The translations under genes were made by a program, and so were the position numbers. This document shows positions 4,030 through 49,602 of a stretch of 64,000 nucleotides of DNA, in pieces. The notes below the pieces were generated by a model. It saw only the letters and a program-made list of their open reading frames with translations, did not search any database and was not told the DNA's origin. The number at the start of each line of letters is the position of its first letter. Within the stretch, counting starts at the first letter, position 1. Origin of the DNA: Heterostelium album PN500 (Eukaryota; Evosea; Eumycetozoa; Acytosteliales; Acytosteliaceae). The DNA lies in NCBI RefSeq assembly GCF_000004825.1, contig NW_008805078.1:958069-1022068 (forward strand). Reading direction: 5' to 3'.

Positions 4030-4736
4030 ATCAACAAAGCAAAAAAGAAATCAAACCACCACTTTTTATTTTTATTTTATTTAATCAATCAATTATCATC
4101 AAACACACATTTTCTTTTCTCAATCATCATCATCACTCATATTAATATTAATGTGTTAGCAATCAATAATAGTAATAATGGTCGACCAATCATTAAAAGC
4201 TAATTTAATAAATTTAACAATAATTATTTTGCTTATTAAAAAAACAAAATTTATAGATATTTTTTTATTCTCGGTTTATATTAATTTAGAAATATTTATT
4301 TTATTGATCCATTCATTTAATAGGAATTTGCATGTTTTTTATTTTTTCCGTTAATCATTTAAAAACTTTCATGTTTTTTGATATTTTCAAAAAAAATATG
4401 GGTGACTTGAGTGAAGAAGATGGGCTGTTCAGTTTTGACCAACACACACATTATATGACTTTTTTAACAACATTATTTATAATTTAAAAAAAAACAAAAC
4501 AAAAAAAACAAACATCAATAAATAATTATCTTCATAATGTAGTGTAAATAAAGATAGTTTTACATATTCATATTATTTATAAATATTTTTATATCAAATT
4601 AAAAAAATATTAAATAATTACTTTTCAGTTTTTAACCAGATATTTTTTTTTTAAAAAACAAAGATTATCTTTTAGAAGTTATCATCATTCATTTATAAGA
4701 AAGAACTATAGGATAAAAAGAAAAAAAAATAGAGAA
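4030..4736. other. Intergenic spacer, no gene seen
   Basis: A/T-rich spacer between two plus-strand genes. It holds the trailer of the CTL-like gene and the leader of the vWA gene. No open frame with coding composition and no structured element was noticed. Confidence 0.5.
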
Positions 4737-11635: not shown

Positions 11636-12405
11636 TTCTTTGTTTTTTTTTTTTGTTTTTAAAAGAGTATTTATTAAAGATAAGTATATACTAATAATTA
11701 TAAATAGAACAAAAAAAAAAAACAAAGTTATTTAAAACAACGTTTAAGATGATTGTACACAAATGATGAAAAGTCTTATCGTTGACAATTTATACATGCT
11801 TAAAATTTTGTACAAAAAAAAAAACAAAAAAAAAATTAAAAAATCTAAAAATCTTTTGATGAGTTTTTAAAACAGCTGCAAATTTAACCTGATCTTATCA
11901 GACACTTTTTTAAAATTTTTTTAAAATTTTTTTTGCAATTCTAATTCCGGTCATTTTGATGACTGATCCTAACCTAAGATGAACATTTTTTTAATTCCTC
12001 TCGAACAACCCAATGAAAATTCCAATTAATTATAATCGGTATTTTAAACTTTAATAACTTAACAATAGTAAGATCCCAAAAGTGAGCACAATGATCATCT
12101 AAAAACACCATTATTTATTTTTATTTTTTTTTGTTCCTGAGATTCCCCAAAAAAATAAGCATCCATCTTTTCTTTTTGTTAGTTCCTGGTCAAAAAATTT
12201 AAATAAATAGAAGAGTTTAAACTTCTCGAATTGAATTATCACTTTAATTTTGACACCATAATGTAATTACAATATAAATAGAATTGAAAAATTATTTATT
12301 TTTAATTCAATAAATTGATATTATTTTATGTAGATTTTTTGATGATCTCGAATATAAATTTATGTTTCTATTGAAATAATAAACCTAGATATATCTGGAT
12401 ATCTT
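11636..12405. other. Intergenic spacer, no gene seen
   Basis: A/T-rich DNA upstream of the decarboxylase gene and downstream of the four-TM gene. No coding-like frame or repeat beyond homopolymer runs. Confidence 0.5.
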
Positions 12406-13277
12406 TTAAATTGGCGTATTCCAAATTAACATTTGTTCATCATCGATTGGTTTGTACTTTCTTCTCTTTTCTTTTCGGAGAGTGATTACCCAAACAATGA
12501 TAATGCCGATAAGATTGAGGAATCCACAAATGGTGATGACTACCCATCCTGTGTAAGGTTGCCAACCAACAGTCTCTAAGGTGGGCTCAGCGAATGAATC
12601 ACTAGTACTATTACTATTCTTTCTTATGAATCCTTTGTCATCCGGCAAAAGATCACATCGCAAAGGTATCTTGTCTGATTTTGCTTTGCAATCCTATAAT
12701 TTAATAATAATTAAAAATTTATCAATTGAAATCAATCAATCAATCAAAAAAAAAGTTAATAAAGTAAATAAAATGTGAAATAAATTATAAAGATATACTT
12801 ACATCTTCAATGGTATGCATGATTCTTGTGAAATAAATAATCGATACAGAGACAGAGATGAACGAAGCCACAGAGAATAGACGTGATGTACGTGGAACGA
12901 GTGACGACGACTTCTTAAAACCGAGCAATAGGATACTATGGAGAAGAATGATGACGACTACACACACTAAAGACAGAGTCATCAATGCAATACACAGCTG
13001 CAACAAACTGAGTGTTTTCTCCATGTTATCAAATGATTCAACACTGGACATTGTTGAATTTATATTCTTAAAATCATTGTAATAGAAATAGGTCTTATTG
13101 CCTCCACCCCAAAAAATCCTGAACCAATAGACTTTAATAATAAGAAAAAATATAGTATCATAAGTATAATATCATTCATTATAATTATAAAGTTATATTA
13201 CCTTGATAGCTTGCAATATAGAGACAAAGTATCATTAAGAATACAAACAAAGGAAGTAAATTAAAGTATCTATTCAT
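12406..13277 (-). CDS. Four-TM membrane protein, unknown function (three exons)
   Basis: Minus-strand exons 13277-13202, 13131-12803 and 12693-12406; introns phase 1 and 0; 230 residues. TM1 is at the very N-terminus (LLPLFVFLMILCLYIA). An outward loop of about 45 residues carries Y-W-F and GGGNKT (possible N-glycosylation at N-K-T). TM2 (LLQLCIALMTLSLVCVVVII), TM3 (LFSVASFISVSVSIIYF), a second loop with two Cys (DCKAKS, LRCDLLPDD) and TM4 (GWVVITICGFLNLIGIIIVW) follow, with a basic cytoplasmic tail KEKRRKYK. The topology is claudin/tetraspan-like (both ends inside, two outer loops), but I see none of the diagnostic claudin or tetraspanin motifs. Exon joins are supported by GTAAT/GTAAGT donors, TTAAAG/TTATAG acceptors and an open frame throughout. 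Function unknown. Confidence 0.7.
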
Positions 13278-15277
13278 TTCTTTATAAATATATATATATT
13301 ATTCTCAAATGATAATGATGTATATGTTTAAGAGATTTGAAGAGATGTAATTTTTGATTTGATAAACTGAAAGAAGGGTGAGAATTATAAAGATTAATAG
13401 GTGTTATTAAATAGATAAAGTGCTGATTGTTATATAGATGATAGATATTTAATTGTTATTATTTTATTTTTTGATATTATTATTATTATAGATTGATAAT
13501 GATGAAACGTTATAAAGTCACCCTTCTTTTTTGTTAAGGTAGGTTAGTGGATTGACAGCTTGTCTTTGAAATGGCATGAAGAATAGGCAAACAAAGAATC
13601 GTTATTCAACGGTTGAACTTCTCAGTTTGCAATGATAGGAATGCTTTTGAGTAGTAGCTCCTTGATATGGTGGTGTTTAAAATAAAAATTTAAAACTTGG
13701 TGTGTTTGTTTTGATTTGTTGTGTGATGAGAGATGAAATGATTGCTATCAATGATATTTATTCAACAACTGTTAATTTTAACAAAAGAGTTCTGTCAAAA
13801 TAGGAATAAGAGTACAATACAAAAATAAAAATAATAAAAATAAAAGTTAAATAAAATATTTTAGATATTAATAGTCTTGATTGTAAATAAATATATAATA
13901 AAGAATGATTAAACAAAGTAAAAAGATATTTTAACAATGCCAAAAATCAGTTTTTATTGGCGATCTATTTTTTTTTTTATTCAAATTTCATATTTATTTG
14001 CACAATATTGTTCAAACTATTTTTGTGGTCAACATCTCATAAAGTAAATAGGATAAAAATCGGATACAAATATTTAAAAAAATAAAAAATTGGATTTTAA
14101 ATAGTTAGGTTATAATGTTAGGTAGTACTTATCATCTCTAATTGCCAAGAAATAAATATAATTTGTATTAAAGATATTTATATAGTTAATTAAAATATAT
14201 TATTATTTTATTTGATAATGTTCATAAGAAAAATAAAGAAATGTCTGTATTGGTTCGAAGGTTGAAATTTGATATATATTAAGACATTACAACTAAACTT
14301 CAATGCTTTTCACAACATAGCTAGCTTACTGATGAAAAAGTGATCTTATACAATTATTTATCGCTGATCATGAATACTCATTCTAATTTTAACACACTCT
14401 CTAACAAAAATCACTGTGTTTTATAGTAAAAAACAAACATTTTGTTTGAGTACATAAACTTGAAAAAAAAAACAACAACCATATACCTATCACTAAACAA
14501 ATAACTATAGTTGATTACATACCACATGTAGTGTTTTTTTCATTTATTTGTTTTTTTTTGTTTTTTTTTGTTTTTTTTTTTATCATACTTTTATTGTTAC
14601 CTCTATCACTACTACTACTACTATGAAGTGAATAAGATAAAATGTAATCAAAACTCATTGAGTTAAAAAATAAAATACATTTGTTGGTGATCACTTCATT
14701 ACTGTACCTAACTTTTTTAATCGAAATTCCACCACTCATCATCATTCAAAACACATTCATTTCATTTACAACAATCAGTTTTCTGATTAACATATTTTAA
14801 TTTCACAATGCGGTCAATCCTTATTTTGTTGAATGAAAATTAAGTTGCAATAGTATTTATAGTGAAACAGCTGTTACCATTTGATGAAAAGAATTGTATT
14901 TCTGCTATATATATGTGTGTGTGAATGAGTGTTGTTTTTACATGCTACAATAATTGAACAAGTAACACATTATTCATATGAATTTTAATATCATTATAGT
15001 ACAAACAAAGGGTTATTATTAATATAAAAGGTTTGGTCTTAATGCGAGTGATTGTTCAGCAAAATTTTCATTTCCAAACAATATAAACAAGTTGTTGAAT
15101 CATATTTTATTTCTATCTATCTGCTTTTTTTTTTTTTTTTTTAATTGGAAAATATTCTACTAAATCAAACAAGGTAATCTAAACCAAGTTTAGAGTTTAC
15201 TTATCCAAGTCAATCCTTAAACAACAACAACAACCCAACACCGTTAAAATTCTTCAAACAAAGAATCCGATTCAAAA
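13278..15277. other. 2-kb gene-poor A/T-rich interval
   Basis: No supported gene. Short frames at 13758-13943 and 14515-14745 on the minus strand have spacer composition and are rejected. A slightly richer patch near 13540-13680 has no open frame of note on either strand. The last 100 bases are the leader of the small secreted-protein gene, with CAACAACAACAAC before the ATG. Confidence 0.45.
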
Positions 15278-15526
15278 ATGAAGATTATACTTGTCATTTT
15301 CGCATTGATCTGTCTGACAATGGTAATGGCCGATGTCATCATACCGACTTGCTCAAACACATGTCAGACCGGTGTATACCAACAGATGTACAATTTCTGC
15401 TATTCGCTGACCAACCCTAGTAGTGCGCGTGACTACTGTATGAGTGGTCTTCCTTTCCTTAAATCTATCGAAAGCTCTCCAAGATCCTACAGAGCCAATT
15501 GTAATGACCTGTGTGAAACCTTGTAA
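15278..15526 (+). CDS. Small secreted cysteine-rich protein (82 aa)
   Basis: Single exon. Residues 1-18 are a typical signal peptide (MKIILVIFALICLTMVMA). The mature part of about 64 residues has six cysteines spaced C-x3-C-x11-C-x12-C-x20-C-x3-C, that is, a CxxxC pair near each end and two single cysteines between. This spacing suggests a compact disulfide-bonded helical hairpin. There is no TM segment or ER-retention tail, so secretion or delivery to phagosomes or lysosomes is expected. I do not recognise the family. The leader and codon use look like a normal expressed gene even though both flanks are gene-poor. Confidence 0.8.
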   Translation: MKIILVIFALICLTMVMADVIIPTCSNTCQTGVYQQMYNFCYSLTNPSSARDYCMSGLPFLKSIESSPRSYRANCNDLCETL

Positions 15527-15702
15527 TCTTTTACTAGGGATACATGAAAAAGACACAACAACAATTAAACCACAACAACCTAAATATTTCCATCTTTATT
15601 ATTATCGATATCTAAAATTAAAAAATTAAATAAAGTAGTATTTGTTCAAAACAATAGTTTTGAAATTTAAATAAAAGAAAATAAATTATAAGTTATTTAT
15701 GT

Positions 15703-16179
15703 TTTTGTTTTAGAAAACTTTACAAACATTTTACTTCTTCCGTACCTCTATCTTCCCAATGTTTAGGATAAAAAAGTGTGGATCGCAAGATGTCTTCGAA
15801 TCTCTCCAAATCAATTCAGTGAATTTTACTTTTACTATCTGTTTATGAAAGTTCTAATCAGATAGATGCTATAGAATTCTAATGGTAATTATCCTTTCTT
15901 TCAATTGGTTTTTTCGTCAACTTCCTTTTTCTTATTTTCTTTTCTTTCTTTTTTTTTCTTTTCCATTCCTAATTCATAAAATAAGGAGAGGATGAATTTT
16001 TCGACTTTATAGATACCTACTTGATTAGCAGATCCAGTACCTCTGGTATGCAGCCAACAGATCCTTTGAATAGTTTAGAAACCTGCCTTAAACAATTCAA
16101 GAAGAAGTGTATATTGGAGTCAGCAACTAAAACTTCTAACTTCTCGAAGATCTCCTTAAAACCAAATCTGTTAATCTAG
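15703..16179 (+). pseudogene. Coding-like fragments, possible dead or unmodelled small gene
   Basis: Two coding-like stretches sit in spacer DNA. The first (about 15759-15845) reads MFRIKKCGSQDVFESLQIN. The second (15991-16179) reads DEFFDFIDTYLISRSSTSGM and continues to PTDPLNSLETCLKQFKKK before a stop. Both have protein-like composition and lie in the same direction, with 145 bases of spacer between them that could be an intron, but no convincing donor and acceptor join them in frame. No family is recognised. It could be the 3' part of a decayed gene. Confidence 0.35.
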
Positions 16180-17359
16180 CGGTGAATTCTTTTTTATTAT
16201 TTTCATTTACATTATTAATTCTACTAGAGAATAGAAACTTATAAATTATGGTTCACTATAAAAGAATAGTATAATTGATATGAATAAGGGCTTAAACAAA
16301 TAAATAAGATAAAACACATACCAAACAGAATCAAAATTTGGAGAATATTAAACTAAAAGAATCAACTACTAAATTAAAAGTTCTATTCGAAGCCATACTA
16401 AAGTAATATAATGAGATAAATACCTTCTACTAAATTATATATCCTATATAAAGGAATATGATAAGATTTTATTCAAATTAATATTAATTTATAAGATAAA
16501 AGTTTTAGATCAATGGTAAATGATTTCGAATGTTTCCTTGCATCTTATTGTCTTTCCTATATTTAATTTATTATTTCAACCGTTACCTCAGATTATGTTT
16601 GGAGTATTCTAAACTTATCTATATTCTTCAAGGGATCAATAAAAATAATTTATCAATATAATATTTCATTGATTATTATTAGTTCTTATTCTTCTTAAAA
16701 GGATAGATATGCTTTAAAAAAACTAATACTTACTCTTTTATGAAAACAATAGTTTTTATTAAAAATAAATTATTTCGTTGTCAATAGAGAAAGTTAATTG
16801 TTGATATATCTTCACTCAAAACTAATATTTTATCTTCTACTATCAGAAATAACTTTCTTAGGTTAAATCAAAAAATTTCATAAATATATCTTCATCAAAT
16901 AAAAATAGAAAATAATTGTAAAAACAATTCTATAATTAATTTATTTATATTCTTTTTATATTCTTTAGAAATAAATAATTGGATAGATTGATATGGAACT
17001 AATTTTTATACTTCGTACCTATCAACGTGTGAAGTTTCCTATTTAAATTCAGCTTCATGGAATTAAATAAATACGTTGTCAAATATCATTAAATCTTTGA
17101 TTTTAGAAGATACCATTTTACTTTTACAATAAAAATATTACGATTTGATTCAACTCTAATTTTATTTTTTTATTTTCTTTTCTGTTGTACATCAATCACC
17201 TTCCACCATTAAAAATTTAATTATTTTTTGTATTTTTTTAAAACTACTATTGATTCCTTTTAATTTTTTTTTTGGAGATTTTTCTTTTCTTTTTAGTGAA
17301 AAACAAAAAAATAGACTGGTTCCTTCATCAATTCCATTTTTAGAGGTTCACATCATTCA
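16180..17359. other. A/T-rich interval, no gene seen
   Basis: Degenerate A/T-rich DNA between the coding fragments and the large hairpin. All frames are short. No terminal repeats or other element boundaries were noticed. Confidence 0.45.
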
Positions 17360-17495
17360 TATTTTCTCTTGATAAAGATTTCTGGTATCGACGTAGACAT
17401 CACATTTTTAGTTAAAATAATGAATAAATATAATAATGAATAACTAAAAATGTGATGTCTACGTCAATACCAGAAATCTTTATAAAGAGAAAATA
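17360..17495. repeat. Large near-perfect inverted repeat (55-bp arms, 26-nt loop)
   Basis: The left arm 17360-17414 and right arm 17441-17495 are reverse complements with only two mismatches in 55 positions; the spacer 17415-17440 is 26 bases. The arms include GATTTCTGGTAT, GACGTAGACATCACA and TTTTTAGTTA. The arm sequence is not the simple A/T repeat of the spacer, so chance is excluded. If transcribed on either strand it would fold into a long hairpin. It lies 107 bases before the start of the GT31-like gene. Candidates are a small-RNA (miRNA/siRNA-type) precursor, a MITE-like foldback element, or a cruciform regulatory element. Confidence 0.9.
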
Positions 17496-17602
17496 CTTTA
17501 TAGAAATTCAGTTCTAAAATATTTTTATTCTTCTATCTATCAAAATTATTACTTTTATATTTTTAATTTTCTTTGTAAATTAATTATTATTCTATCAAAA
17601 AT

Positions 17603-18364
17603 ATGTATATACTATCCTCTAAAAAATATCAAAATAAATTAATTTTATTATTTATTTTATGCTTTCTATCTTTAATTTTATTCTCTAATATAAATAGTTT
17701 ATCTCCAACCAATAAAACATTGGATCATCCTGTAACACATCTATATAATATTACTAGTTATTCACCCATTACCATTCTTGTTCTTACTTCAGATTCTAAA
17801 AAAGATAGTAGAACTAAATTAATTCGACATACATGGGGAGGTAAAGCCAAACTTCGAGGATGGAAAGTGTATTATTATTCTGAGAGCGACCAGGAGTATC
17901 CTTCGGATACTATTGCTTTAGGATGTAGCCAAAACGAAGATACTAAAAAGTGGAGAGCTCTTTTACATGCCAGGGATTGCTCTGTTCAACCATCCAATTT
18001 CTATATTCTAGTGAACGATACCGTAACTTTAAATATTGGAGAATTATCCAAAAAGATAGAGGAACTCTCGGAAAAGCAACCATTGGTTTATGGACAATGT
18101 ATTACTGTCGATTGGAAAACGAAACCATATTGTGGAGGTGGTGATCTAACTATTTTTAACAGAAAAGGATTAGAATTAATAATGAAAATGTTTTTAAGTG
18201 GAGAATGTAGAGAGTATAATAGTAGATCAGATTGCTTCTATGAAACTAATATAAAGTATGATTTAGGATTCGGTACTTTTCCAGAATCACCTACAACTTT
18301 AAAACACTTTTTAAATAATAATTTATCTTTTCAAATATTAAATATTGAAAATCTTATTTATTAA
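17603..18364 (+). CDS. GT31/fringe-like type II membrane glycosyltransferase
   Basis: Single exon, 253 residues. A short cytoplasmic basic end is followed by one TM anchor at residues 12-31 (LILLFILCFLSLILFSNI), giving the type II topology of Golgi glycosyltransferases. The luminal part begins with SPITILVLTSDSKKDSRTKL-I-R-H-T-W, which matches the GT31/fringe opening (a TILVLTS strand followed by R-x-x-x-I-R-x-T-W). It continues with a YILVNDTV strand at the place of the D-x-D metal motif and a YCGGGDLTIFNRKG block like the acceptor-side C-G-G-x-G of fringe and core-1 galactosyltransferases. Only one Asp remains in the metal motif (N-D instead of D-D), so activity is uncertain. At 253 residues it is shorter than the usual 300-370. 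Codons here are more A/T-rich than in neighbouring genes. Donor and acceptor sugars are unknown. Confidence 0.75.
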   Translation: MYILSSKKYQNKLILLFILCFLSLILFSNINSLSPTNKTLDHPVTHLYNITSYSPITILVLTSDSKKDSRTKLIRHTWGGKAKLRGWKVYYYSESDQEYPSDTIALGCSQNEDTKKWRALLHARDCSVQPSNFYILVNDTVTLNIGELSKKIEELSEKQPLVYGQCITVDWKTKPYCGGGDLTIFNRKGLELIMKMFLSGECREYNSRSDCFYETNIKYDLGFGTFPESPTTLKHFLNNNLSFQILNIENLIY

Positions 18365-19276
18365 TTAATAAATAATATATTATATTTCAAATTGGATAAC
18401 AATTATAAAATTTTTATTAGTTAAACTTCTTGTACTTTTTGTTCCTTTGATTTTTTTAGATGATCTCTATTTGGCCCATATCACTACAATTTCAGTTTGA
18501 CCATTTTTTTAAAAGTGCTTACGTAGAACATATAAAATTATGATAAAGATCTCCTTGGTTGAAATAAGTTACATTGTTTCAATCTTAATTAACATGTTTT
18601 TAAATCGTATAATAATTATTGTTTTTTCAGATCAAACCATCCCACTTTTATCTGAAAAATTGTGAAACGTTGTTTTTTTTTTTTGTAAAAGAAACACTTT
18701 TTTTCCATTGTACCAAATCATTAATGATTTATTAAGTTCTTAATCTTTCAAGAAATGATACTTAAAATAAAATATATTCACTTTGAAATCTCTACAATTT
18801 CGATAAAACAAAAAATCATATCAATAAAAGGTTATATATGTTAAAACGTAGCTTTTCGTAAAAAAAAAAAAAAAAAAAATAACTATTAGATGATTTATCT
18901 TCATTATCATAAAAATGAATACAGGAAATAGATGAACCAAATCTATGATTTATCTAACTTTGAATCGAATAGTTGAGGTTGTATACATTTTAGATATATT
19001 GTTGGTGTTTGTTGTCTGAGGAAATTATATAATTTCTAAGTTTCAATAGATATACACTCAATTCTTTTATCAATTATATTAACATATTATTTCAATTTTG
19101 TTTGGAATAATCGTCAGTGTCAAGGAAGTTCAAAAAAAAATGAAAAAAAAATAATTTGATTTTTTTAATTTTTATTTTTGAGTGTAATTACGTTTGGTGA
19201 TAGTTTTTTTGTGAATTTTTTTACATATTTTTTGATCAAATCATATTTTTAATATCAATTAAATAAATAAATAATA
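18365..19276. other. Intergenic spacer, no gene seen
   Basis: A/T-rich DNA with an A run at about 18860-18878. No coding frame or RNA gene was recognised. Confidence 0.5.
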
Positions 19277-19853
19277 ATGGCAGGTCAATATTGGAGATTC
19301 GCTGGTCTTACATACCTTGAATATATCAACCTTTCTGGTTCACATCTTCGTAACTGTTTGAAGGAGCCATTCAAGGCTGCCGCCAAGAACAGAGAACAAA
19401 TGTTTTCAACTTACACCACCTACCAAAACGGAAAGGAACTTAGCTCCAGTATGTCTTTGTTTTTGACTCTACTTCGCTTCACTTCACTACACTTCACTAC
19501 ACTATCTATTCAGCTCAGTCAACACCTTTATATCTATTACGATCATATTCTTTGAATGATTAACCAGCAATATTATAAAAAGAATGTTTATATTTGCGAA
19601 CAAACAGCTGCAAAACCACACATTATTCTATCAAATAATATTTAGATTTACATTAGCTATAGATTTGGAATTATCATATTATTTAGACAAGATGTTAAGT
19701 GTATTGATTATCACTTTAATAGATTATTAGAAGATTTATATCATATATATATAAACAATTTAAAATTATTATCTTAACATCAAGAATACTAATATGTTTA
19801 CTTTAACTATAGTTACCCTTTCAATGCCAGATCTTGCTGCCCCAAAGAAATAA
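19277..19853 (+). CDS. atp5E: Mitochondrial ATP synthase F1 epsilon subunit
   Basis: Two exons: 19277-19448 and 19813-19853, phase 1, 70 residues. The opening MAGQYWRFAGLTYLEYINLS matches the eukaryotic epsilon-subunit signature (a short N-terminal loop, YWR-x-AG-L-x-Y-x-x-Y). It is followed by the basic helix LRNCLKEPFKAAAKNREQMF. This small protein sits in the F1 central stalk with gamma and delta. The spliced tail reads ITLSMPDLAAPKK and ends in AAPKK; family members are about 50-75 residues, so the length fits. Without splicing the frame runs into intron sequence (a repeated CTTCACTACA motif). The intron is 364 bases, several times longer than most here. No cleaved presequence is expected for this subunit. 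Confidence 0.9.
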
Positions 19854-20275
19854 ATTATTAATTCATCATACCGTTATAGATAGTTATAGTTATAGTTAAC
19901 CAACCAACAAACAAACAAACAACAAAAAAAAAAAAAGAAACGACGACATATCGATATGTGAATTCATTCATTTTTATTATAAATAGTGAATAAAGTTTAT
20001 TGTAAAATCATTAAAGACAAACTTAGATAGAAACAGATTAACAACTATAATCAATAGATCTCTTTATTTTGGTTATTTAACTATTTATTTATTTATTAAA
20101 AATAATAGATATTCAATTACAATATTGTATTGTTGATTTATTTATATATTGTTTTTTTTTACAGAGTTTTATTATAATTTAAATTATGACTAATGATTTC
20201 AAAAGTTAAGTTGACTTATAGTAGTAGTGGTAGTTGGTAGTCAACAAGTTGGTAGGGAGGTGGTTGATTACATTT
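19854..20275. other. Convergent intergenic spacer
   Basis: A/T-rich DNA between the 3' ends of the ATP synthase and lipase genes. No gene seen. Confidence 0.5.
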
Positions 20276-38984: not shown

Positions 38985-39669
38985 TAATAACAAACATAAA
39001 TAACATTGGATATAATAATAATAGATAAAAAAAAAAACCAACCAACTTGATTTATAAAAACAAACAAACAAACCAAATCAAATCAAATCACACACTAAAT
39101 ATTTTTAGTAATAAATAATATATAATTATGTAAATATATTTAACAAATTAAAAATTATTATGAAACAAATGAGATATAGGATTTGGTTTAATACTGTTCT
39201 TAACTCTTTTTCAAAACCAAACTTTAGGCTATTTACAAAAAAGAAGATTGTATTCTTCTAATTATTATACATCTTGATTCAAACTAGATGGATTAATTTT
39301 CAAACCTCTTGATATTTGTAATGAAATTGATCTCGATTGATCTGATTACACGAGTATAAAATAATCATTCTACTATTCACTTCTCTGATAAAATATCCAA
39401 CACTTTTTAAGATTTCTCTTTACAAAAATTAAATAAAAAATCTTATCTATTGTGTAAATGACCTTTTTTTGCATACTCTCCGAATTTCTAAAATATCTTC
39501 AATGATTAGAAAGAGCAAAGATATTTGCAAATATCTTTCTAATAATTTGCAAAATCATAAAAATCTCCCCAAAAAATTTGATTAATTTTTTTATTATTAT
39601 AAATAACATTTTTGAATTAAGATCTTAAAGTATCTTTTTCTATTGTTTTTTTGTAAAGTGATCCTTAAA
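38985..39669. other. Intergenic region upstream of ComC-like gene A
   Basis: A/T-rich spacer that holds the palindrome at 39517-39538. About 60 bases before the ATG match the region before the second ComC-like gene (both contain GATCTTAAAGTATCTTTTTC). No gene. Confidence 0.55.
39517..39538. promoter_or_regulatory. Perfect 22-bp palindrome upstream of ComC-like gene A
   Basis: Half-site AAAGATATTTG meets its exact reverse complement with no spacer. It ends 131 bases before the ATG at 39670. A near copy lies upstream of the tandem paralogue (44711-44730), where only the two central bases differ from symmetry. Conservation of both arms in duplicated, otherwise diverging spacer suggests a binding site. 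Confidence 0.5.
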
Positions 39670-42600
39670 ATGAAAATTCATAAATTTATAAATATTACTA
39701 TTTGTACATTTTTTTTGTTGGGTAAATATTAATTAAATAATAAAATTCTAATAGATTCTAAATTAATACAATTTAAAAAATAAATAAAGATATAATAAAT
39801 GGTGCTGTCCTATTAGAATATAGTATTGGACGTCCAATCCCAATAAAAGATGAACAAAATAAATGTTTTTTTACATTCTCTGTTCTAGTATCTCATCCAG
39901 AACCATTAGGTGCTACTGATTTCACAATAAATTTACCTTCATATTCTCAATTGTTCTCAACTCTAGTTTCATGGGGTATCAATAGTACAATTCAGTTGTT
40001 TAATTTTCACACATTTCAAGATTATGTTGCAACAGTTGATCTTGGTCTCATCATAAATACATCGTCAGGTCCAGTTCCGATTACAGTTCCTGGTTTTAAA
40101 TGTTTAGGTATGTTATATTTAAAGAAAACTACTATATTATATATTCTTTTATTAATAAAAGAAAACACTCTTTTAGATTTCGATATAAATAGTTTTACTC
40201 TTAAGAAAATAGGTAGTCCACAAATGCACTCAACCAAAAATATTTTTGTATTTTTGGAATATGATTTTTCCCAAGCATCACTTCTTATTAATAGTTACAT
40301 TGAAATCTCGTGCACAACAATAACTCCATTTGTTTGTTACTTGGCACCTGTTAATCAATATCCAAATGTACAAATTTTGTATATTAGTATAAACAAGGAT
40401 TTTTTGACACTTCCTGAAGAAATACCTATAACTTTAACTCTTCGAGGCCAAGATTTAAAATTTAATGTTTCAAATATATTCCCATATAATGGTAAGTATA
40501 ATTAAAATAAATCAAATTAATGATTTTAATTGAATTAAAATATATTTTTTTTAGTTACTAGAACTTCAGTTGTTATAAAAGAGATTGAATACCCTCCATC
40601 CGGTGCAAATCTAACTCAAGATTTTCAATTATTATATTATGATTTGGTTAGTTATTTATTCATAGAGAATTCCAATTCATTTTTTTATATAATGAATTTT
40701 GGCTATGGTCAACCAGTATTTCAACCATATATTCTTTTACAACAAAATCAAACTCATTCAACCTATTTCCAAAAAATGTCCTTCCAAACTATTGCTACCG
40801 GTACATTAATTCCAGTGATGCTTGATAATAGGATTACCAATATATCTAGTGATTATAATTCAACAAACCAAAATACATGTAAGATAGATTTTTTTTCGAT
40901 TGTATTGTGTTATTTCATTTAATAGGTTGGGTTTTGTTTTTGCAGCTTTTTTTGAATTCTCGCATTATTTTTGCAAAAGCACACAAAAGCTACGCAAAAT
41001 TTTTTCATTTTTTGGGGGATGGATAAAATGAAATTCCACATTTAATTTATATTTGAATAACAAATATTAATAATTTTTTTTTTTTAGATATAAATTTACC
41101 CCTTAATTCATCAATTGGTTATGTTCCGAATTTAGATTGTTACTTAGGATATTCTTCTTTTGAAATGCCAATGATTTCAAAACCAGTTATTAGTACACCT
41201 TATTCTTTCAATACCTATTTATATTTTCAAAATCCATACCCATACGCTTATTCGAATGGTTCTTTTACATACTCTGGTGTTTTTCCTCTTAGCATGGAAT
41301 TTCAAACTGATTCAGTTTTTATAACATATACCCCAGGAGGAATATCAACCATAAATATATCTAAAATCAGAAAAAGTAAATAGTACAAAACAAAATATTG
41401 ATCAACATTAGTTAACATTTTTTTTTTTTTCGGTTTTATTTTAGCGAGTAATATAGTGTTATATGATGTTACATATGGCAAAGCACAATGGTATTCTTTC
41501 ATGGCTAGACTTAATATCTCTTCAGTGTGTCAAGTTACTGCTATACAAATAGGTGGTTCTAGCTTTATGCTTACACCACTTATTTATGGAGATTATTATA
41601 ATGGTATCTATGAATTTGAAGTAGCTCCCAGCACTACTTTAAATGAGTATAAAATTACCATTAATGATGCTTGCTCTAGGCAGTCTATATTCACCAGCTC
41701 CTTGTTATATGTACCTGTTCAAGGACAGAGTTCACTTTTGTATTTTCCAGAAAATGTTGAATGTAAGTAAATCAATAAATTTGAGTGGTTTATCTTTTGT
41801 TATTAATATAAAATATCATTTTATTCTAGTTCATATTGACATAAGGAACATTACTTATTTCAAACTATCGAGAAATGTGTTTGATTTAAGCAATGGTGAT
41901 GTAAATGGAACACTCTATTTTAATTTGAGCCACCCAGTCAAGGAAATGGAGCCTATGTTTGTCATTTCTTACCTTTCTTCTACCTTTTATGGAAAGTATG
42001 ATTCCAACTTGAATTTATATATAATCGACTTTACAATTCCCAAAGGAATGATGCCTGGTAAAATGTACTATGGTATTGATGTACTAGTTACAGTTATAGA
42101 ATCAACAATGTTGGAATCATACTTTAATGATAGTGTTGCAATAACAGTTACAAATTCAGGTAAATATAAAATATTAAAGATTAAAAATTAATGAACAAAG
42201 ACAATAACCAACCAATTTTATTATTTAATAGCCGGTGATTTTATGGATCCAATTCTAGAAGAGATTCATGCATTCCCAAATAACAATTACAGTATTGGTG
42301 AATCAGTTGTCGAAGATATCGGATGGAATTTAAGAATCACAGACTTCCCAAATGGATTTTCATTTGGAACTTTGGATATCATTTCAGATCATGATTTATT
42401 ACCAATTAAAGTAAACTTTAGTGGACAATCATCTCGTATTTCAGGAAATGAATTTGATGGTGTTTATGCCATTAGATTTTCAGTGAATGGTACATGTCGA
42501 ACCCAAACCTATACAATTGCAAATGTTCTATTATATGATAATTTTGCCTATAAAAGTGAATATCTCTCAAACATGAACCCATTGACATCGATTTTCGGTT

Positions 42601-44489
42601 CACAATATGCTGATCAACTAAAGTTACAACTCAATTGTTTGACAAGTAAGTTTAATTTATCCACTTTATTCTACAAATAATATTTATTCTAATAATATTA
42701 TAATTTTTTATTAAAGGTATGATTGATAATGATGCACCAATTATGACAACATTTGACTTTTCACCAATCTCAGTTGATGTTGGTTCACTCAACAGAAATA
42801 TTAAATTTTCAATGAAAATTAAAGATGTTGGACCATCTGGATTGTCACTGAGACACTCTCCAATAATTCAATTGGCATCAGATAATGCAGATTTAGTTCA
42901 AGTTACAATGAATTATATATCTTCGATAAATGGAGAATATGTTTTCGAATCTCAATATCAATTACCATATGGTTTTGGAATGAATGTGATCACCGTTAGT
43001 ATCTTTGGATTGGTTGACAATTTCAAAAACTATCGAGGATACAACACTTTTGACTTGATGAACAGTACATCTTTATGGCCATATTCAATTCAAAGAACAA
43101 TGACTTTAACCAATCCAATTTTGGAAAGAGCCTTGAAATTGACAAACAAAGGTGGAGTTTTATATGTATATGGAAGAAATTTTGGATTGGATTCATCTGG
43201 ATTTTCGACTACCATCAACTTCCAAGATGGGAAAGGATTTTTAAATGTTGAATTCGATTCTTTCTTTGCAACCATGTTAAAGTTTAATAATATTCCACCA
43301 ATTTCATCAAATAATATATCAATGATTGTCACAAAGAATGGAATCAGTTCGAATGAATTAATCATACCAATTGAGAATGCAAATCCAAACCCAAGCAACA
43401 CACCTACACCTACGGCCACTCCATCAACAACACCACAACCACAAAAATGTCCAGGAACACCAGAATGTAACAACAATGGACAATGTATCAACTCAATTTG
43501 TAAATGTTATGATTCTTGGTATGGTCCATCATGTTCTTCAAGTATGTATAACTTATCTTTTTACACTTAATTGTAAATTAATTTTAATTAAATATCTATT
43601 ATTTTTAGAAATAATAATAGTACCGATTCCACCAGCATATCCAGAACCAATAACAGGAATAAATATAACAGAATCTGGAAGTTTAATCACAACATCGATC
43701 GAAATCATTGGAGTCAGAGAATTGGATGCAACAATGAATGTTGTTCAATCATTCAACATCAGTAAATGGAATTTCACAGATCTCAGCACAACATCGAGCA
43801 ATCCAAAGTATTTCTATTCAACTCAACTCAACCAAAGATCAACATTATTGAATGTATCGATTGAATACTTCAAAAACTCAGGTAATATCACATTTGCAGG
43901 CGAACAACTCTTCATTCCAGCTTCGACAATCAAATTCTCAATGAATATGAGTCATTATGATTTCAAAGACCAAACGAATCTCATTCAAATATTGATGAAA
44001 TCATCGATTCAAACCGATAACTCTGATGCTTGCTCATCGGCTGGTGTTGGTATTGTCGATAAGAATGTTCAATGGATCAAATTGAATGTTGATGAAAGTA
44101 GTCTTTATGGAAGATTTTTGTCGAAAGGTGTCATAGACAACAGAGTCAGTACCATTCAGAATGTCATTATTGAAGATGAAGACGAAGATCAAACCAAACA
44201 AATGAGATCGGTAATCGTTGGTATCATTTGTTCATCATTTGAAGATTCTATCAATTTAGACCCTGATTTCTCGAATCTCATTGATGTCGGATCTTCAGAC
44301 ACCTCTGATTTCATTTGTTCATCTTCAAACAAGTTAAGTAATGGTGCAATTGCTGGTATTGTTGTTGGTGTTATTGTTTTAATCTCCATCGTTGTTGGCT
44401 CTGTTCTTTACATCAGAAAAAGAAAGAAGTTCAAAGAACAAGAATTAAGAATGAAGCAAAGATTATCAAACTTAAATAAAGATCTCTAA
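39670..44489 (+). CDS. ComC-like EGF/IPT cell-surface protein, tandem copy A (ten exons)
   Basis: Exons: 39670-39721, 39790-40107, 40177-40491, 40555-40878, 41088-41375, 41445-41762, 41830-42159, 42232-42645, 42717-43541 and 43609-44489; all nine introns are phase 1; 1354 residues. Exon 1 encodes the signal peptide (MKIHKFINITICTFFLLG). Exons 2-7 each encode a beta-rich module of about 96-110 residues. Exon 9 holds an IPT/TIG-like sandwich (LTNKGGVLYVYGRNFGLDSS, about 920-1010), a PTPTATPSTTPQP linker and one EGF-like module (CPGTPECNNNGQCINSICKC). Exon 10 ends with a TM helix (GAIAGIVVGVIVLISIVVG) and a short basic tail RKRKKFKEQELRMKQRL. This order matches the dictyostelid ComC/EGF-like receptor-type proteins, cell-surface proteins tied to cell-cell signalling or adhesion. 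A ligand cannot be assigned. Many N-x-S/T sites suggest heavy glycosylation. Confidence 0.88.
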
Positions 44490-44933
44490 ATAAAATAATC
44501 ATTAATATTCTTATTCATCGCTAACGTTTTATTTTGTTACGAAATCAGATCGATCGAGCAGTTTTTTTATTTTACAAAATTTGAATAAATTATTTATCAT
44601 TCTGATATTCGTTTCTCTTTTTAGATTTCACTTTACAAAAAAAAAAAAAAGAAACATTTAATAAATTCATTTACTTATAGGAGTAAATCTCAAAATATCT
44701 TTAAAATAGAAAGATATTTACAAATATCTTCCAAAAAAAAAATCATAAAAATCCAAACATTGAATAAATCTAATTCTCTATTTTTTTATTAAAAGATACT
44801 TTTATTTATTAGCTGTAACCTTTTTTTTATTTGATTTAATTTATTTAAAATAAATTTTGAACAAAACAAATTTTTAAGATCTTAAAGTATCTTTTTCTAT
44901 CTTTTTTGTGTAAAGTTTAAGAGATCTTTAAAA
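44490..44933. other. Intergenic region between the tandem ComC-like genes
   Basis: A/T-rich spacer carrying a palindrome (44711-44730) and a leader block duplicated from gene A (GATCTTAAAGTATCTTTTTC at 44878-44897). No gene. Confidence 0.55.
44711..44730. promoter_or_regulatory. Palindrome upstream of ComC-like gene B
   Basis: Arms AAGATATTT and AAATATCTT around a two-base AC centre; the counterpart of the perfect palindrome upstream of gene A. It lies about 200 bases before the ATG at 44934. Confidence 0.45.
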
Positions 44934-47900
44934 ATGATTATTTCTAAATTTATAAATATTATTATTTGTGCATTTTTATTTTTCGGTAAATTTAATAATT
45001 CTAAATATTTAAAAATTAATAAAATTAATAGTTCAAAAATAATAAAGGTTATATAAAAGGTGCTGTCCTCTTAGAGTATAGCATTGGTAGACCTATCCCA
45101 ATAAAAGATGAACAAAATAAATGTTTATATTCCTTCTCTCTTCTTGTGTCTCATCCAGAACCTTTAGATCCAACTGATTTCACCATCAATTTACCTTCTT
45201 CTTCAATATTAGTAGCCACTTTAGTTACAAGGGGTGCCAATAGCACTATTCAGTTGTTTAATTTTCAAACATCTCGAGATTATGATATCGCCGGTACAAT
45301 CGATCTTGGTTTCATTATAAATACATCATCTGGACAAGTTACAACAACAGTTCCTGGTTTTAAATGTCTTGGTAGGTCTATTTATATAATTAAAGATAAA
45401 TAATATTATTTTTTATTAATAAAAGAAAACTCATTTAGATTTCGATATAAATAGTTTTACTCTTAAAAACATAGGTAGTCCGCAGATGTATTCGACCAAC
45501 AATATATTTGTATATTTGGAATATAATTTTACTCAAGAACTTATCAATAGCTACGTTTCCATCACGTGCACTTCAATAACACCATTTGTTTGTTCCTTGG
45601 GACCTGTTAGTCGATCACCAAATGTACAAATGTTATTCGTTGGCATAAATAAGGATTTTTTAACACTACCTTCAGAGATACCAATCACTTTAACTCTTCG
45701 AGGTCATGAAATTAAATTTAATGTTTCAAATATATTCCCATATAATGGTTAGTATAATGAAAAGATAAAATTATAAACTTACTAATAGAATGATAAATAA
45801 TCTTTTTTTCTAAACTTACTCATATTTTAGTGACTAGAACTTCAGTTGTTCTAAAAGAGATTGAATACCCTCCATCTGGTGCAAATCTAACACAAGACTA
45901 TCAAGGATTATTTTATGATTTAGTTAGTATATTGATGGTCGAGAATTCCAATTCGTTGTTTTATATAAATAATATGGGTTCAGGCAGTGCTGCATTTCAA
46001 CCATATATTCTTTTACAACAAAATCAAACACATTCAACCTATTTCCAAAAAATGTCCCTCCAAACTATTACATCTGGTACATTTCTTCCCGTAATGATAG
46101 ATAATAGGATTACCAATATATCTAGTAACTATAATTCAACAAACCAAATTACATGTAAGTTTTTTTATACTATTGTATTTTATCAATTTTATTAAAAATA
46201 AATTGTATTTATAATATTGTTTTAGATATAAATCTTCCACTTAATACATCTATTGGTTACGATCCGATATTAGATTGTTATCTAGGATTTTCTACTTTTG
46301 ATATGCCAATGATTGCCAAACCAATTATAAGTACAGTTTATTCTTTCTATACCTATTTATATTTTCAAAATCCATATCCCTACGCTTCTCCAAATGCTGG
46401 CTCTTTTACATATTCTGGTGTTTTTCCTTTGAGCAAAGAATTTCAATCAGATTCTATGTTTATCATGTACACTCCAGGAGGGTCATCATCAATTAGTTTC
46501 ACTAAAACCCCAAAAAGTAAATTTTTAAAACAAACAATTGAAAATTGATCAATCACTTACTTTTATTTATTTATTTTAGCAAGTAATATTGTTTTAAATG
46601 ATGTTACATACAGTAAAGTACAATATTTTTCTGTCATGGCTCGAATGAATATCTCTTCATCATGTCAAGTTGCTTCTGTATATGTAGGAGATTCTGGTAC
46701 TGCTATCACAGCACTGGTGTATGGAGATAATTATAATGGTATCTATGAATTTGAGTTGGCTCCCATGACTACTCTAAATGAATATACAATCACTATAAAT
46801 GATGCATGCTATAAGCAGGCTATATTCACTAGTTCCTTGCTTTATGTCGCTAAACAAGGACAGAGTGCACTATCGCATTTTCCAGCAAATGTTGAATGTA
46901 AGTAAATGAACCACTAACATCATACTTTTAGTAATTAATAATATAAAATATCATTATTATAGTGTATATTGATATTAGAAATATTACATATTTCAAACTA
47001 TCGAGAAATGTGTTTGATTTAAGCAATGGTGATGTAAATGGAACACTCTATTTTAATTTGACAAATCCACTCAAGGAATTGGAACCGATGTTTGTCATTC
47101 CATACCTTTCTTCTCAAAATATAGGAAAGTATGATTCCAACTTGAATTTATATGTAATCGACTTTACAATTCCCAAAGGAATGTTACCAGGCAAGATATT
47201 ATATAGTATTAATGTACTAGTTGCTCAAATAGAATCAACAATGTTGGAATCATACTTTAATGATAGTGTTGCAATAACAGTTACAAATTCAGGTAAATAT
47301 AAAATATTAAAGATGAAACATTAATGAACAAAGGCAATAACCAACCAATTTTATTATTTAATAGCCGGTGATTTTATGGATCCAATTCTAGAAGAGATTC
47401 ATGCATTCCCAAATAACAATTACAGTATTGGTGAATCAGTTGTCGAAGATATCGGATGGAATTTAAGAATCACAGACTTCCCAAATGGATTTTCATTTGG
47501 AACTTTGGATATCATTTCAGATCATGATTTATTACCAATTAAAGTAAACTTTAGTGGACAATCATCTCGTATTTCAGGAAATGAATTTGATGGTGTTTAT
47601 GCCATTAGATTTTCAGTGAATGGTACATGTCGAACCCAAACCTATACAATTGCAAATGTTTTACTTTATGACAACTTTGCCTATAAAAGTCAATCTCTTA
47701 CAAACATGAACCCATTGACATCGATTTTCGGTTCACAATATGCTGATCAACTAAAGTTACAACTCAATTGTTTGACAAGTAAGTTTAATATTATCAAATT
47801 CAATCAATCAAATACTAATATTATAATTTTTTATTAAAGGTATGATTGATAATGACTCTCCAATTATGACAACATTTGACTTTTCACCAATCTCAGTTGA

Positions 47901-49602
47901 TGTTGGTTCACTCAACAGAAATATTAAATTTTCAATGAAAATTAAAGATGTTGGACCATCTGGATTGTCACTGAGACACTCTCCAATAATTCAATTGGCA
48001 TCAGATAATGCTAATTTAGTTCAAGTTACAATGAATTATATATCTTCGATAAATGGAGAATATCTATTTGAATCACAATATCAATTACCATATGGTTTTG
48101 GAATGAATGTGATCACCGTTAGTATCTTTGGATTGGTTGACAATTTCAAAAACTATCGAGGATACAACACTTTTGACTTGATGAACAGTACATCTTTATG
48201 GCCATATTCAATTCAAAGAACAATGACCTTAACTGAACCCATCTTGGAATCTGCCAAGAAATTGACAAACAAAGGTGGAGTTTTATATGTATATGGAAGA
48301 AATTTTGGATTAGATTCAACCGGATTCTCAACTACCATCAACTTCCAAGATGGGAAAGGATTTGTAAATGTTGAATTCGATTCTTTCTTTGCAACCATGT
48401 TAAAGTTTAATAATATTCCACCAATTTCATCAACTAATATATCAATGATTGTCACAAAGAATGGAATCAGTTCGAATGAATTAATCATTCCAATTGAAAA
48501 TGCAAATCCAAACCCAACTAACACACCTACGGCCACTCCATCAACAACACCACAACCACAAAAATGTCCAGGAACACCAGAATGTAACAACAATGGACAA
48601 TGCATCAACTCAATTTGTAAATGTTATGATTCTTGGTATGGTCCATCATGTTCTTCAAGTATGTATAACTTTTTATCCATTTTTTCATATATCTAATTAA
48701 CCAACTATCTTCTATTTTTAGAAATAATAATAGTACCGATTCCACCAGCATATCCAGAACCAATAACAGGAATAAATATAACAGAATCTGGAAGTTTAAT
48801 CACAACATCGATCGAAATCATTGGAGTCAGAGAATTGGATGCAACAATGAATGTTGTTCAATCATTCAACATCAGTAAATGGAATTTCACAGATCTCAGC
48901 ACAACATCGAGCAATCCAAAGTATTTCTATTCAACTCAACTCAACCAAAGATCAACATTATTGAATGTATCGATTGAATACTTCAAAAACTCAGGTAATA
49001 TCACATTTGCAGGCGAACAACTCTTCATTCCAGCTTCGACAATCAAATTCTCAATGAATATGAGTCATTATGATTTCAAAGACCAAACGAATCTCATTCA
49101 AATATTGATGAAATCATCGATTCAAACCGATAACTCTGATGCTTGCTCATCGGCTGGTGTTGGTATTGTCGATAAGAATGTTCAATGGATCAAATTGAAT
49201 GTTGATGAAAGTAGTCTTTATGGAAGATTTTTGTCGAAAGGTGTCATAGACAACAGAGTCAGTACCATTCAGAATGTCATTATTGAAGATGAAGACGAAG
49301 ATCAAACCAAACAAATGAGATCAGTTATTGTTGGTATCATTTGTTCATCTTTTGAAGATTCTATCAATTTAGACCCTGATTTCTCGAATCTCATTGATGT
49401 CGGATCTTCGGACACCTCTGATTTCATTTGTTCATCTTCAAAAAAGTTAAGTAATGGTGCAATTGCTGGTATTGTTGTTGGTGTTGTTGTTTTAATCTCC
49501 ATCGTTATTGGCTCTGTTCTTTACATCAGAAAAAGAAAGAAGTTCAAAGAACAAGAATTAAGAATGAAGCAAAGATTATCAAACTTAAATAAAGATCTCT
49601 AA
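44934..49602 (+). CDS. ComC-like EGF/IPT cell-surface protein, tandem copy B (ten exons)
   Basis: Exons: 44934-44985, 45048-45371, 45439-45747, 45831-46154, 46226-46516, 46580-46897, 46963-47292, 47365-47778, 47840-48658 and 48722-49602; again nine phase-1 introns; 1353 residues. The domain order is identical to copy A: signal peptide (MIISKFINIIICAFLFFG), six module exons, an exon-8 module, IPT/TIG-like plus EGF-like (exon 9), TM and basic tail (exon 10). Exons 2-6 differ from copy A in many residues, whereas exons 7-10 are almost the same. One donor is GTTAGT (after exon 3). The Thr/Pro linker before the EGF module is two residues shorter. Same orientation and 444 bases of spacer, so an unequal-crossover type tandem duplication. 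Confidence 0.88.

Follow-up and report, generated by a model that had tools for sequence, protein, structure and literature searches.

A long, near-perfect hairpin in a dictyostelid genome as a possible young small-RNA precursor

Is a long and almost perfect hairpin in a gene-poor interval of a dictyostelid genome the precursor of small RNAs, a foldback element, the leader of the neighboring gene or an inert product of duplication? This question is raised by positions 17360–17495 of the 64-kb window (the whole stretch of DNA that was analysed, to which all coordinates refer unless another locus is named). The 5' arm (17360–17414, + strand) pairs at 53 of 55 positions with the 55-nt 3' arm (17441–17495, + strand), and the two arms enclose a loop of 26 nt (17415–17440) with 8% G+C and an AATAAA at 17423. 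The mismatches on the + strand are G·A (17371/17484) and C·A (17389/17466). On the − strand the C·A mismatch turns into a G·U pair, so that 54 of 55 stem positions are paired if G·U is counted. The arm coordinates, the arm length, the 26-nt loop and the two mismatches reported by the sequence-only reading were reproduced exactly on re-examination. The fold that it had recommended was computed for 17340–17515 and gave −72.8 kcal/mol on the + strand (z −14.6) and −80.5 kcal/mol on the − strand (z −17.1), with none of 200 shuffles being as good on either strand. The higher stability of the − strand fold counts against a precursor read from the + strand.

When the window is scanned for inverted repeats, the hairpin scores 65.8 and the runner-up 23.6; 100 dinucleotide shuffles of the same 64 kb gave a mean of 19.0 (sd 1.6) and a maximum of 24.0. 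The wider scan covered 264 kb, namely the window together with 20 stretches of 10 kb, all on contig C3, and took the best five repeats from each of the 21 sources. Among these the hairpin is the second. The first, with a score of 95.2, is a CAA/CAG-rich inverted repeat in one of the sampled stretches (L033, arm at 4272–4353 with its partner downstream, 82-nt arms, 134-nt gap), and the best other non-simple inverted repeat in the 264 kb scores 34.6. The hairpin is beyond a chance fold; it is locally outstanding and ordinary in kind. Another stretch (L037) holds a non-repetitive and fairly G+C-rich inverted repeat of 31 nt (1132–1162 and downstream, 127-nt gap), and neither a tRNA nor an Rfam family at gathering score was found in L037. 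At Rfam gathering scores the 20 stretches of contig C3 contain one tRNA and nothing else. The window itself also harbors a tandem duplication at approximately 39667–49000 with a period of ~5.1–5.3 kb; its 14 aligned blocks are 77–98% identical, with the highest identity toward the 3' end.

The arms contain 29% and 26% G+C, as compared with 8% in the loop, 23% in 17000–17359 and 13% in 17496–17602. Both values lie below the mean of 31.96% for the 200 kb of the 20 sampled stretches. The "mixed base composition" ascribed to the arms at first sight therefore holds in relation to the loop and the flanks, which are poorer in G+C, and does not hold in relation to the sampled stretches, with their mean of 32%.

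A young MITE-like foldback had been proposed as the main alternative, with dispersed copies and target-site duplications as its marks, and neither of the two was found among the matches listed for the assembly or at the flanks. The assembly that was searched comprises 32,926,113 bases in 39 contigs. A DNA search of these 32.9 Mb with the hairpin returned its own locus only, in both orientations, among the matches listed. When up to 3 mismatches were allowed, the arm's outer 26-mer and middle 25-mer recovered just the two arms among the matches listed (control 0). The inner 21-mer, at the same tolerance, recovered the two arms and at least 5 other sites, whereas its reversed control gave at least 11. 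With a covariance model built on the hairpin, nothing but the hairpin itself was recovered on both strands of the 264 kb, and no diverged relatives. The flanking direct repeats are at most 2 nt long when the ends are taken symmetrically and 5 nt when any offset is allowed; of 300 random sites with this geometry in 12000–20000, 204 are flanked by a repeat of 5 nt or more.

Some features do lean toward an element. Terminal inverted repeats are present by construction, and the palindrome starts and ends with TA, as a TA-targeting element would, a TA duplication here being indistinguishable from the palindrome's own ends. In addition, the outer 20-mer has, with up to 2 mismatches, at least 16 other sites in the assembly against at least 6 for the control. 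This word is, however, AT-rich, and any two of the extra sites are more than 50 kb apart; therefore, no second element of the hairpin's size is among them. A MITE or foldback transposon, possibly its sole surviving copy, is thus a very unlikely explanation, and a dispersed MITE family is unsupported: no other copy appears among the matches listed, no target-site duplication is evident and the symmetric repeat measures 2 nt. Two other origins were also considered. No similar place in the assembly, among the matches listed, supports a derivation from part of a target gene in inverted orientation, and the region 17300–17560 is without a match in phage records.

The reading that we tentatively prefer, although we hold it a little below even chances, is that the hairpin is the precursor of a young miRNA or hairpin-siRNA which arose as a single-copy inverted duplication. 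A recent duplication of this kind would yield the 55-bp near-perfect RNA hairpin; the hairpin would be transcribed, most likely from the + strand, by a T-tract promoter just upstream, and a Dicer-like enzyme would cut the stem into one or two duplexes of ~21 nt. Its youth is suggested because only 2 of 55 positions are mismatched. For this locus we infer the transcription, its strand, the dicing, the loading and any target alike. In favor of the precursor are the high stability, the near-perfect arms, the second copy not found in the assembly among the matches listed, the arms being less AT-rich than the flanks, and the RNAi domains encoded in the genome. The latter comprise Piwi matches at two loci (C4 and C11) and four RNase III matches arranged as two adjacent pairs (C17 and C7), which we read from the sequence as two putative Dicer-like loci.

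The criteria published for miRNA precursors include a folding energy below −0.2 kcal/mol/nt and pairing of at least 60% of the duplex (PMC6161686). The 136-nt hairpin at 37 °C has −0.53 kcal/mol/nt on the + strand and −0.57 on the − strand, and its pairing amounts to 53/55 and, with G·U, 54/55, respectively. The same source also names at least 10 reads per arm, 2-nt 3' overhangs, uniform 5' ends and loss in a Dicer-like mutant among its criteria (PMC6161686). In Rfam 15 no family reaches its gathering score at the hairpin, and a known RNA family was accordingly rejected at the curated score. Below the gathering scores, 15 of the 18 rows in 17150–17650 are miRNA models; the lowest E-value is 2.3e-8 and the best score 49.5 bits, where the gathering score is 139.7. 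We read these matches as a reflection of the shared hairpin shape.

Several observations count against the precursor. No near-complementary target stands out in the assembly among the matches listed for three arm-tiling patterns with up to 3 mismatches. The length of 136 nt exceeds the usual 75–125 nt. Furthermore, the hairpin lies outside the open reading frames found, whereas the published miRNAs of Polysphondylium pallidum, the probable source species, are reported as mostly intronic (PMC11014262). Loose intron motifs (five GTA-type donors in 16001–17359 and two AG sites in 17496–17602) settle nothing on an intron location.

The precursor reading can be set against what has been described in related organisms. 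An Amoebozoa survey reports miRNAs in 6 of 6 dictyostelids, mostly unique to each species; in its account dictyostelid miRNAs are mostly single-locus, those of Amoebozoa have a lower A+T content than intergenic DNA does, and precursors of unusual length that are nearly free of mismatches are taken as newly evolved (PMC11014262). These newly evolved precursors resemble our hairpin in their unusual length and in having 0–1 mismatch in the duplex. They differ from it in exceeding 200 nt and in being accompanied by reads, whereas the present hairpin is 136 nt long. It may already be included in the miRNA tables of this survey (2024). Among the titles listed for P. pallidum small RNAs and for endogenous hairpin RNAs in Dictyostelium, none concerns the hairpin locus.

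The nearest system in layout is the ddi-mir-1177 locus of D. discoideum. There, too, a single hairpin precedes a protein gene, whose start codon follows the stem-loop after 361 nt (107 nt here), and upstream of the hairpin a T tract is followed by a G at a distance of 116 nt from mir-5p (here 86 nt from the arm) (PMC6161686). In contrast to our locus, both 5p and 3p reads of mir-1177 were mapped, mir-1177 is DrnB-dependent and its capped start was mapped after 26 T (PMC6161686); here the tract has 10 T. In mir-1180 and mir-7102 one stem gives rise to two adjacent duplexes, for which the 55-bp stem has room as well, but both of these are intronic and have mapped reads (PMC6161686). The sequence-only reading had proposed a small-RNA precursor; the energy, the pairing, the RNAi domains of the genome and the mir-1177-like layout are all compatible with this proposal.

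The T tract mentioned above, T10-G at 17264–17274 (+ strand), is a weak candidate for the transcript start region. It is the only run of at least 8 T before a G on the + strand of 16500–17650, and no such run was found on the − strand of 17200–18000. In D. discoideum, G residues following 21 and 26 T have been described, and many protein genes, too, have a T tract in front of them (PMC6161686). In the AT-rich parts of the window, 7.1% of positions have a tract of at least 10 T followed by G in the 150 nt upstream; for all + strand positions the value is 2.6%. Because of the former frequency T10-G points to + strand transcription only weakly, and it may have arisen by chance.

Class I RNAs and other DUSE-driven ncRNAs of dictyostelids have their DUSE promoter ~60 nt upstream of the start. 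The three-C DUSE consensus is absent in 16800–18000; the P. pallidum form is the two-C one (PMC7919456). The sequence ACCATTAA at 17205–17212, with 62 nt between its end and the G of the T10-G tract, faintly resembles a two-C DUSE. The window also contains an RNase MRP RNA gene (1326–1674, − strand; Rfam RF00030, 72.5 bits against a gathering score of 50), for which inspection by eye gave no CC motif ~60 nt upstream. Elsewhere in the assembly U2 snRNA matches are found at 8 places on C8, C9 and C13, several of them close together (four on C8 within ~77 kb), and U6 matches at 2 places, both on C27.

The hairpin could instead act through the gene that follows it. The ATG of an open reading frame for a 253-aa Fringe/GT31-like protein (17603–18364, + strand; assigned by the reading frame, paralogue matches and Pfam) is separated from the hairpin by 17496–17602, that is, by the 107 nt already given in the sequence-only reading. 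Matches of this protein elsewhere in the assembly are found on C11 (34% identity) and, in two pieces, on C7 (41% and 38%). With the Pfam Fringe model (cut-off 21), one paralogue (L003) gives 44.4 bits and the first exon of the other (L004) 31.3 bits, as compared with 16.4 bits for the window protein, for which a domain search returned nothing at E 0.001. The GT31-like label is therefore weak for the protein itself and good through its paralogues. Among 250 candidates from the protein database the only homologue was the window's own entry. Both paralogues have VDDDA where the window protein has VNDTV. DxD is the metal-binding motif of Fringe/GT31-type transferases, and because of this replacement the window protein is, as judged from its sequence, probably not an active transferase but a pseudoenzyme.

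A hairpin located in the 5' UTR of this gene could hinder translation, or it could let Dicer cut the mRNA and thereby lower the gene's expression. The gene lies on the same strand as the T10-G tract, and the pri-mir-1177 transcripts of D. discoideum extend into the gene behind the hairpin and build up when DrnB is missing (PMC6161686). The authors of that work nevertheless ascribed to that downstream gene a promoter of its own (PMC6161686). Furthermore, the paralogue loci are without a comparable hairpin (L003 has 0 and L004 has 6 inverted pairs of at least 25 nt, of which the first listed has 39 nt and 77% identity), and the AATAAA in the loop at 17423 could end a transcript before the gene is reached. 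We consider such a structured leader unlikely. A combined possibility, which we regard as quite improbable, is that a newborn species-specific miRNA locus lies in the read-through path of a decaying Fringe/GT31-like pseudoenzyme gene and that dicing of the leader would also set the expression of this gene.

The strongest competitor of the precursor reading is an inert inverted duplication, formed recently in one step by template switching during replication or by a small duplication-inversion, which is either untranscribed or not diced and will decay. We regard it as a serious possibility, almost as likely as the precursor. The near-identical arms and the second copy not found among the matches listed also suit it, and perfect hairpins have been described to arise by template switching (PMC8794818). 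The surroundings are an AT-rich interval with no ATG-started open reading frame of at least 80 aa in 15527–17602, no target stands out for the arms and no RNA family is recognized at the curated score. Just upstream, at 15278–15526 of the gene-poor interval, an 82-aa open reading frame is seen which by eye has a signal-peptide-like start and several cysteines. Against the inert duplication speaks the score of 34.6 for the best non-simple inverted repeat in the 200 kb outside the window, as compared with 65.8, which indicates that such hairpins are not common; this argument is limited to 200 kb of one contig and is compatible with a few hundred such hairpins genome-wide. An assembly artefact, with one read folding back on itself, appears less likely in view of the two mismatches in 55 positions.

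If small RNAs are made from the hairpin, it would add another young miRNA to a lineage in which miRNAs turn over rapidly, caught while its arms are still almost identical, and would help to show how such genes arise. If none are made, it would illustrate the kind of raw hairpin that could give rise to miRNA genes.
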